Below, piece by piece: positions 30,393 through 32,122 of a stretch of 64,000 nucleotides of DNA. Origin of the DNA: Opeltia flavorubescens (lineage: Eukaryota; Ascomycota; Lecanoromycetes; Teloschistales; Teloschistaceae); the NCBI GenBank assembly GCA_000442125.1, contig KE546967.1, positions 1,674,001 to 1,738,000 on the forward strand, read 5' to 3'. The position numbers and the translations under genes were made by a program. Within the stretch, counting starts at the first letter, position 1, and each line of letters begins with the position of its first letter. The notes beneath the pieces were generated by a model. That model worked only from the letters and a program-made list of their open reading frames with translations. It did not search any database and was not told the DNA's origin.

Positions 30393-30401
30393 TATAAAAA
30401 A
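30393..30401 (+). promoter_or_regulatory. TATA element upstream of tRNA-Lys (plus strand)
   Basis: TATAAAAAA lies 19-27 bp before the first tRNA base, a position where fungal Pol III genes often carry a TATA box for TFIIIB. It argues that the downstream tRNA gene is transcribed. Confidence 0.6.
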
Positions 30402-30457
30402 TTCTTGCTCCCAAGAAAAGCCCGGCTAGCTCAATTGGTTAGAGCATTCGACTCTTA

Positions 30458-30463
30458 CCAGTC
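30458..30463 (+). other. 6-nt insertion at the canonical tRNA intron site (37/38)
   Basis: CCAGTC lies between A37 and A38 of the anticodon loop; taking it out restores a seven-base loop closed by a perfect five-pair stem. If real it is an exceptionally short substrate for the tRNA splicing endonuclease. Confidence 0.7.
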
Positions 30464-30478
30464 ATCGAAAGGTTCTGG

Positions 30479-30530
30479 GTATGTTGACACTCACAAAACT
30501 CACAGCAGATCTCAGCTAACGATTCAACAG
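30479..30530 (+). other. Spliceosome-type intron inside tRNA-Lys, between positions 52 and 53
   Basis: 52 nt with donor GTATGT, branch motif GCTAAC with its A 11 nt from the end, and acceptor CAACAG. These match the mRNA introns of the neighbouring genes in motif and length. The flanks join as CTGG/G to remake the T stem. No run of four T occurs inside, so Pol III would not stop early. No self-splicing or bulge-helix-bulge structure is evident. Confidence 0.85.
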
Positions 30531-30559
30531 GTTCGAGTCCCAGGTCGGGCTAGGATTGG

Positions 30560-30565
30560 TTTTTT
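30560..30565 (+). terminator. Pol III terminator of tRNA-Lys (plus strand)
   Basis: Run of six T, nine bases after the discriminator base. Confidence 0.8.
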
Positions 30566-31895: not shown

Positions 31896-31901
31896 AAAAA
31901 A
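31896..31901 (-). terminator. Pol III terminator of tRNA-Lys (minus strand)
   Basis: Six T on the minus strand, starting two bases after the discriminator base. Confidence 0.8.
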
Positions 31902-31938
31902 GAGCCGAAGGCGGGGCTCGAACCCGCGACCTTGAGGT

Positions 31939-31946
31939 TTCTATAA
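31939..31946 (-). other. 8-nt insertion at the canonical tRNA intron site (37/38)
   Basis: TTATAGAA between A37 and A38 of the anticodon loop of the minus-strand tRNA-Lys. Removing it restores a seven-base loop with anticodon CTT. Confidence 0.65.
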
Positions 31947-31957
31947 TAAGAGCCACA

Positions 31958-32009
31958 CTGGAGAAGTTGTCAGAGTTTTGAATTTTCTATTTGGAAGGGG
32001 ATGAAGTAC
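31958..32009 (-). other. Spliceosome-type intron between D stem and anticodon stem of tRNA-Lys (26/27)
   Basis: 52 nt with donor GTACTT (weaker), branch motif TCTGAC with its A about 13 nt from the end, acceptor CTCCAG preceded by a pyrimidine-rich stretch. Removal places base 26 next to the anticodon stem. No run of four T inside. Confidence 0.78.
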
Positions 32010-32018
32010 CGCTCTACC

Positions 32019-32069
32019 CTGGAATAGTGTCAGTATTTGCGTGCTTGAGCACTGGAAACCAATACTCAC
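32019..32069 (-). other. Spliceosome-type intron in the D loop of tRNA-Lys (17/18)
   Basis: 51 nt with donor GTGAGT, branch motif ACTGAC with its A about 12 nt from the end, acceptor TTCCAG. Removal joins AATC to GGTA and gives the standard D loop between GCTC and GAGC. No run of four T inside. A small hairpin (GTGC-TCAA-GCAC) lies in its middle. Confidence 0.85.
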
Positions 32070-32114
32070 GATTGAGCTACCCCGGCTTAATTGAGATCGA
32101 ATTCGAAAAAGCAA

Positions 32115-32122
32115 TATATAAA
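32115..32122 (-). promoter_or_regulatory. TATA element upstream of tRNA-Lys (minus strand)
   Basis: TTTATATA on the minus strand (TATATAAA on plus), 29-36 bp before the first tRNA base, comparable to the element before the plus-strand tRNA-Lys. Confidence 0.55.

Follow-up and report, generated by a model that had tools for sequence, protein, structure and literature searches.

The locus described here raises the question of whether nuclear tRNA genes can be interrupted by introns of the type that the spliceosome removes, and of how such introns are to be told apart from ectopic tRNA introns, gene decay and chance. The window, that is, the whole stretch of 64,000 nucleotides that was analysed (C3:1674001-1738000), belongs to an assembly of 34.4 Mb in 23 contigs and is, judged from its protein neighbours, DNA of a lichen-forming fungus of the Teloschistaceae. 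An aminotransferase reading frame at 4154-5956 shares 88% identity with a protein of Gyalolechia sp., and the best named protein matches of two further genes in the window lie in Gyalolechia, Pyrenodesmia and other genera of the same family, which we take to be the Teloschistaceae. The gene that raised the question, here termed Lys2, lies on the minus strand and is composed as follows.

32111..32118, minus strand: TATA-like element, 32 nt upstream of the gene
31903..32086, minus strand: Lys2, tRNA-Lys(CTT) in three exons, mature length 73 nt including the discriminator base (read from the sequence, with the cloverleaf score and with ARAGORN on the spliced form)
32070..32086, minus strand: exon 1, with the 5' strand of the acceptor stem, the 5' strand of the D stem and AATC of the D loop
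32019..32069, minus strand: insert 1, in the D loop, 51 nt, with GTGAGT, CTGAC (A at 32030) and TTCCAG
32010..32018, minus strand: exon 2, 9 nt, with GGTA of the D loop, the 3' strand of the D stem and base 26
31958..32009, minus strand: insert 2, between bases 26 and 27, 52 nt, with GTACTT, CTGAC (A at 31970) and CTCCAG
31903..31957, minus strand: exon 3, with anticodon CTT, the T arm and the 3' strand of the acceptor stem
31939..31946, minus strand: ordinary tRNA intron at 37/38, 8 nt, within exon 3
31896..31901, minus strand: T6 run, a terminator of the RNA polymerase III (Pol III) type

On re-reading of the sequence, the positions given in a preliminary description of this DNA were borne out, as were its motifs and the lengths of 51, 52 and 8 nt for the inserts. 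Insert 1 divides the D loop as AATC/GGTA, and 11 nt follow the A of its CTGAC; 12 nt follow the corresponding A in insert 2. Unspliced Lys2 yielded no tRNA from ARAGORN and no match to the Rfam tRNA model. Excision raised its cloverleaf score, for which only paired stems and invariant tRNA bases count, from 25 to 34 (33-37 in ten ordinary genes), and ARAGORN then called a tRNA with a score of 105.0. When all deletions of 30-100 nt were tried, with the other insert already removed in each case, GT-AG deletions accounted for two of the 32 tied best deletions in the D loop, one of them the reported insert, and for one of the two best deletions at 26/27. ARAGORN left the anticodon of this spliced form unfixed, in keeping with one U-U mismatch (29-41) that remains in the anticodon stem. 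Because of that mismatch and of the GTACTT donor of insert 2, which is weak, Lys2 is among the weaker examples of interrupted tRNA genes.

A second, convergent tRNA-Lys gene, termed Lys1, lies 1.4 kb from Lys2 and carries a single insert of the same general form.

30393..30400, plus strand: TATAAAAA, 27 nt upstream of Lys1
30420..30551, plus strand: Lys1, tRNA-Lys(CTT), convergent with Lys2 (Rfam, cloverleaf scan and ARAGORN)
30458..30463, plus strand: tRNA intron at 37/38, 6 nt
30479..30530, plus strand: insert in the T stem (CTGG/GTTCG), 52 nt, with GTATGT, CTAAC (A at 30519) and CAACAG
30560..30565, plus strand: T6 run downstream of Lys1

The junctions of the Lys1 insert read CTGG/GTATGT...GCTAACGATTCAACAG/GTTCGAGTCCCAG. 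The Rfam tRNA model matched the unspliced gene across the insert, with 38.1 bits, and ARAGORN, which made no call on the unspliced form, called Lys-CTT with a score of 115.0 after excision. One of the four best deletions in the scan of this gene was of the GT-AG form, and, for Lys1 and Lys2 together, excision took the cloverleaf scores from 24-25 to 34-37.

The distribution of such inserts was established by a survey of the genome, in which searches with the Rfam tRNA family (34 matches at E<=0.001 and 44 at E<=10) and for B-box patterns, a T run being required in some of them, were followed, among the matches listed, by reading of much of the DNA, including 42 of the 44 Rfam tRNA matches (all but C20:1181 and C1:2791187). 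Sixteen inserts were found in 15 tRNA genes, as against 33 genes without such an insert, so that interrupted genes make up roughly one third of those found, and one of them carries two inserts beside its 37/38 intron; all of these counts, for interrupted and uninterrupted genes alike, are lower bounds. Thirteen interrupted genes were found beyond Lys1 and Lys2, at the following sites.

D loop: Arg-TCT, Arg-CCT, Val-AAC, Pro-TGG, Pro-AGG, Asp-GTC, Leu-AAG and the second Trp-CCA gene (Trp2)
Between bases 25 and 26: Phe-GAA
Variable loop: Ile-AAT and Trp-CCA
Acceptor stem, after base 3 (3/4): Thr-TGT
Acceptor stem, after base 4 (4/5): His-GTG

Over the 15 genes, the inserts thus occupy the acceptor stem, the D loop, the 25/26 and 26/27 junctions, the variable loop and the T stem, and measure 45-58 nt with a mean of 52. 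An intron at 37/38 is also present in 13 of the 15, being absent from both Trp genes, and ARAGORN placed an anticodon-arm intron in 25 of the 33 genes without a spliceosome-type insert, a share that we judge high. The count of 33 omits four tandem Ser-like copies (L009) and one call that on inspection by eye is not a tRNA (L057), and the anticodon is doubtful in four of the genes counted (L019, L048, L049 and L084). A table in a lichen-genome paper gives 47-65 tRNAs for seven genomes, and, as far as that table extends, the small tRNA set of the present genome is in line with it (PMC11353741). An insert inside the T loop itself could have escaped the survey, since the latter requires either uninterrupted T-loop motifs or the Rfam model.

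Several further observations emerged from the same survey. One weak Rfam match (L143) proved to be the second Trp gene and another (L154) is perhaps a Gly-CCC gene; three more (L144-L146) showed no T-loop motif on reading, and six B-box-like places (L147-L152) contained no readable tRNA. Four tandem Ser-like copies about 400 nt apart (L009, C1:405193-406550), with odd anticodons and, according to ARAGORN, an anticodon-arm insert of 92-97 nt each, are perhaps pseudogenes. A tRNA-like gene at C2:1269032-1269212 (L019) carries a 110-nt anticodon-loop insert and an apparent anticodon ATT, which is not usual in eukaryotes; its deletion scan placed no GT-AG deletion among the best. Near contig ends lie AT-rich tRNA-like repeats of 81 nt (L054, L055, L056, L153, C20:1181 and C1:2791187), which match the Rfam tRNA model with 30-39 bits; the six copies that were read are similar to the Ile-TAT gene of L039 and seem degenerate. 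A short tRNA-like gene at C5:1933711 on the minus strand (L064) has a B box and a terminator and seemingly no anticodon arm. Finally, the members of a repeat family (L057, L058, L082 and places on C1, C14 and C19) share a B box and a 3' end of sequence TGAGCTTTT; Rfam recognised none of the three loci that were scanned, and the family possibly consists of Pol III-transcribed snoRNA-like genes.

The case for introns rests in the first place on what excision does to the host tRNA. Deletions of the GT-AG form lay within the best-deletion set for 13 of the 16 inserts, as compared with a chance expectation of 0.81 summed over 15 inserts (the sixteenth was scanned separately); chance was rejected on the combined strength of the scan and of the branch-site and donor statistics given below. 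For Ile the best set holds a GC-AG tie, and for Asp and Pro-AGG the GT-AG deletion falls at most 0.6 points short of the best. Among the controls, no GT-AG deletion was found in the best sets of the three ordinary genes that could be scanned, the other seven of the ten control genes being too short. The spliced forms were judged by ARAGORN, the cloverleaf score and RNAalifold, the covariance model having been applied to genomic DNA only. From 14 of the 15 spliced sequences (all but Leu, which has a long variable arm), RNAalifold derived a cloverleaf of 21 pairs, 19 of which display compensatory changes. Finders working on unspliced DNA miss or misname such genes: five of the 15 reach the Rfam gathering score, and ARAGORN assigned the expected anticodon to three of 14. 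After excision, that number rose to 11 of 14 (the exceptions being Lys2, Pro-TGG and Leu), and all 14 obtained a higher score or a new call, the gain for Leu being only from 103.9 to 104.5.

The same genes might instead be regarded as decayed pseudogenes that have acquired random inserts, with working copies elsewhere. The survey is incomplete, since no Tyr or Ala-AGC tRNA gene was found in it, and the stem mismatch of Lys2 likewise accords with decay; against this, the stems of the spliced sequences are maintained by compensatory changes, promoters and terminators are retained, and random inserts would not show GT-AG ends with a spaced branch site. Moreover, a DNA search with spliced Lys1, Lys2, Phe and His (the four genes so searched) recovered their own exons only, with no intact, uninterrupted copy, and we regard decay as extremely improbable. 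All Phe, His, Asp and Trp genes found carry an insert; Lys-CTT is represented, among the genes read, by its two interrupted copies only, no other Lys-CTT gene being called in the DNA examined, in which 42 of the 44 Rfam tRNA matches are included. The two unambiguous Pro genes likewise carry an insert, but the body of L084 is also Pro-like, with a doubtful anticodon; for Ile-AAT a second copy without an insert is present. A comparison of the interrupted Phe gene with viral contigs gave no matches.

The ends and internal signals of the inserts further indicate the machinery that would remove them. Fifteen of the 16 have GT-AG ends and one, in Ile, has GC-AG. Fourteen contain a YTRAY motif whose A lies 10-14 nt from the 3' end (background 4.6%), 14 likewise have G at +5 (background 23%), and 12 show both features (background 1.2%); the background values come from the 5,935 segments of the window that run from GT to AG over 45-58 nt. 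Neither the YTRAY position nor G at +5 had played any part in the deletion scan. The YTRAY motif is absent at that spacing from the Val-AAC and Leu-AAG inserts, and G at +5 from insert 2 of Lys2 and from Pro-TGG; the Asp insert ends in AAG. The donor was chosen by eye among equal GT-AG options in the Lys2 D loop, Asp, Pro-AGG and Trp2 (without these four, G at +5 is found in 10 of 12), as was the Leu acceptor among equal alternatives. Binomial tails for these signals assume independent inserts and serve as a guide only. A strict donor-branch-acceptor pattern, sought over 230 kb of the genome, occurred 24 times, as against 14, 15, 16, 27 and 35 times for five altered patterns, and shows no enrichment; because the pattern is no commoner than its altered forms, the motif alone proves nothing without restoration of a tRNA, and it is in that restoration, rather than in the motifs alone, that the strength of the spliceosomal case lies.

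For comparison, introns of protein-coding genes were placed by means of homologous proteins in two genes of the window, a small sample in which four introns are clear and a fifth less so. They include GTGAGT..CTAAC..TAG (79 nt), GTATTG..CTGAC..CAG (55 nt), GTAAAA..CTGAC..CAG (47 nt) and GTAAGT..CTGAC..CAG, the last next to a short exon and placed by eye. The tRNA inserts would on this evidence share both signals and size with the mRNA introns of the genome, within the limits of a small sample in which one intron measures 79 nt. A codon-usage intron finder applied to the window returned nothing, and then a noisy list with only a few real-looking introns.

These signals bear directly on a second reading, according to which the inserts are ectopic introns cut by the tRNA endonuclease at bulge-helix-bulge (BHB) motifs and their splice-like ends are coincidental. 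Introns of the BHB type need no GT, AG, CTRAY or G at +5, and these features occur together in the inserts; the acceptor-stem sites after base 3 or base 4 leave little exon from which a BHB could be built; and a strict 4-bp BHB helix was found at the junctions of none of 15 inserts, a form relaxed by one base being found at three (Trp2 was not among the 15). The endonuclease reading draws some support from the 37/38 intron present in most genes of this genome, and from published work which, in its accessible text, describes, for some eukaryotes, tRNA introns at non-canonical sites in the D, anticodon and T regions (PMC4090602, PMC3978253) and many nucleomorph ectopic introns without a defined BHB (PMC3978253). 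Taken together, the evidence renders it very unlikely, and BHB introns were rejected for want of the strict motif. Self-splicing introns of groups I and II, whose conserved ribozyme takes up about 200 nt or more, were rejected as well: the inserts are only 45-58 nt long, and an Rfam search of the window and of the 13 interrupted loci outside it returned no intron family. Mobile copies of a single element were rejected in turn, since blastn among the 16 inserts gave no match longer than 12 nt at E<=1, which accords with the remark in the preliminary description that its inserts have no sequence in common beyond splice motifs.

Because the signature recurs at many tRNA positions with nearly fixed spacing in most inserts, because its removal restores a tRNA, and because neither a strict BHB nor a shared sequence accompanies it, the inserts are, with high probability, U2-type spliceosomal introns, hosted by nuclear tRNA genes in a lichen fungus of the Teloschistaceae. 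The original assignment of the D-loop and 26/27 inserts of Lys2 to the spliceosomal type is likewise supported, the same signature being repeated in 13 further genes.

The flanks of the genes suggest how they would be transcribed. Between -45 and -22, 13 of 14 interrupted genes and nine of ten ordinary ones have a TATA-like element that matches at five or more of six positions (22% in random sequence), and TTTT follows all 14 interrupted and all ten ordinary genes, Trp2 having been omitted from the interrupted set. In His, whose acceptor-stem insert leaves a first exon of only 4 nt, the element TATATATG is placed at -34 relative to that exon, a position that lends the short exon independent support; the fit is poorer for Thr, in which the best TATA-like site lies at -52 and not near -30. 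A variant compatible with the spliceosomal explanation assigns the interrupted genes to RNA polymerase II, with the usual coupled splicing. Spliceosomes normally act on transcripts of that polymerase, TATA-like elements are present, and the Arg-CCT insert contains T5, a possible Pol III terminator. The TATA-like elements and T runs match those of ordinary tRNA genes, however, the B boxes are retained, and U6, itself a Pol III RNA, carries introns in fungi according to a 2017 paper (PMC5832005); transcription by polymerase II therefore appears unlikely.

For tRNA genes with U2-type introns, the following sequence of events, in which both the order of splicing and the polymerase are as we infer them, would account for the observations. 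Transcription, presumably by Pol III, would proceed from an ordinary tRNA promoter, with its TATA-like element, A and B boxes and T-run terminator. U1 would pair with the GTRNGT-like donor of the pre-tRNA, the branch adenosine of CTRAY would attack that donor, and the exons would be joined at the AG in the fashion of a pre-mRNA, which in silico brings back the cloverleaf. Separately, the splicing endonuclease and ligase of the tRNA pathway would take out the 37/38 intron, and end trimming would proceed as usual; this pathway is well established. Since both kinds of intron coexist in one gene, two unrelated splicing machines would be needed to produce a single tRNA. With no sequence in common and with at least eight different junctions among them, the inserts were probably gained independently, perhaps through reverse splicing into tRNA; reverse splicing has been proposed as the source of rDNA and U6 introns.

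The consequences, should this be correct, extend beyond a single locus. Short and highly structured Pol III transcripts, probably without a cap, would be routine substrates of the spliceosome, and translation would, as far as several amino acids are concerned, hinge on its action on tRNA precursors. It is probable, if less so than the identity of the introns themselves, that the spliceosome serves here as an essential tRNA-maturation enzyme, with both splicing systems needed for translation, given that no uninterrupted gene was found for Phe, His, Asp or Trp. Introns of tRNA genes and spliceosomal introns are usually regarded as separate, with separate enzymes, and in this genome both appear to occur in the same transcripts many times over. 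The Teloschistaceae group would also provide a natural test bed for intron gain: with every base of the mature tRNA known, comparison among relatives can show when and where each insertion took place.

Among the literature matches listed, from which subscription papers and preprints are largely absent, there was no earlier report of spliceosomal introns in nuclear tRNA genes, and in the accessible text of a tRNA-intron review the word stem 'spliceosom' does not occur (PMC4090602). Ectopic tRNA introns that have been described are of the BHB type (PMC3978253, accessible part). The canonical 37/38 introns and the ectopic BHB introns of archaea, Cyanidioschyzon and nucleomorphs resemble the present inserts in that they interrupt tRNA genes, in some cases at non-canonical sites and several to a gene (PMC4090602, PMC3978253, accessible parts). 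They differ in being cut by a protein endonuclease at a BHB or at a measured distance, whereas the present inserts show no strict BHB and instead carry donor, branch and acceptor signals. Introners likewise comprise many short spliceosomal introns gained within one genome; their copies share sequence, however, and the present 16 inserts do not. Within the same broad fungal group, spliceosomal introns in the nuclear rDNA of ascomycetes, lichen fungi included, were reportedly described by Bhattacharya et al. in 2000; these too are short, spliceosomal and located in structural RNA genes, and differ in that rRNA is a Pol I transcript and the present hosts are tRNAs. The one U6 gene read in the present genome (C7:393310-393411, L065:311-412) is a full-length Rfam match of 87 bits with no insert, and lies upstream of a B box and a T run, an arrangement that resembles the yeast U6 layout. 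According to a 2017 paper, frequent interruption by an intron was known, among small structured RNAs, for U3 and U6 alone (PMC5832005). Those introns of fungal U6 snRNA and U3 snoRNA genes offer a close likeness, in that small structured non-coding RNA genes, one of them (U6) a source of a Pol III product, carry introns that the mRNA machinery removes; in the present case, the hosts appear to be tRNAs, and the introns lie in many genes and at many positions.
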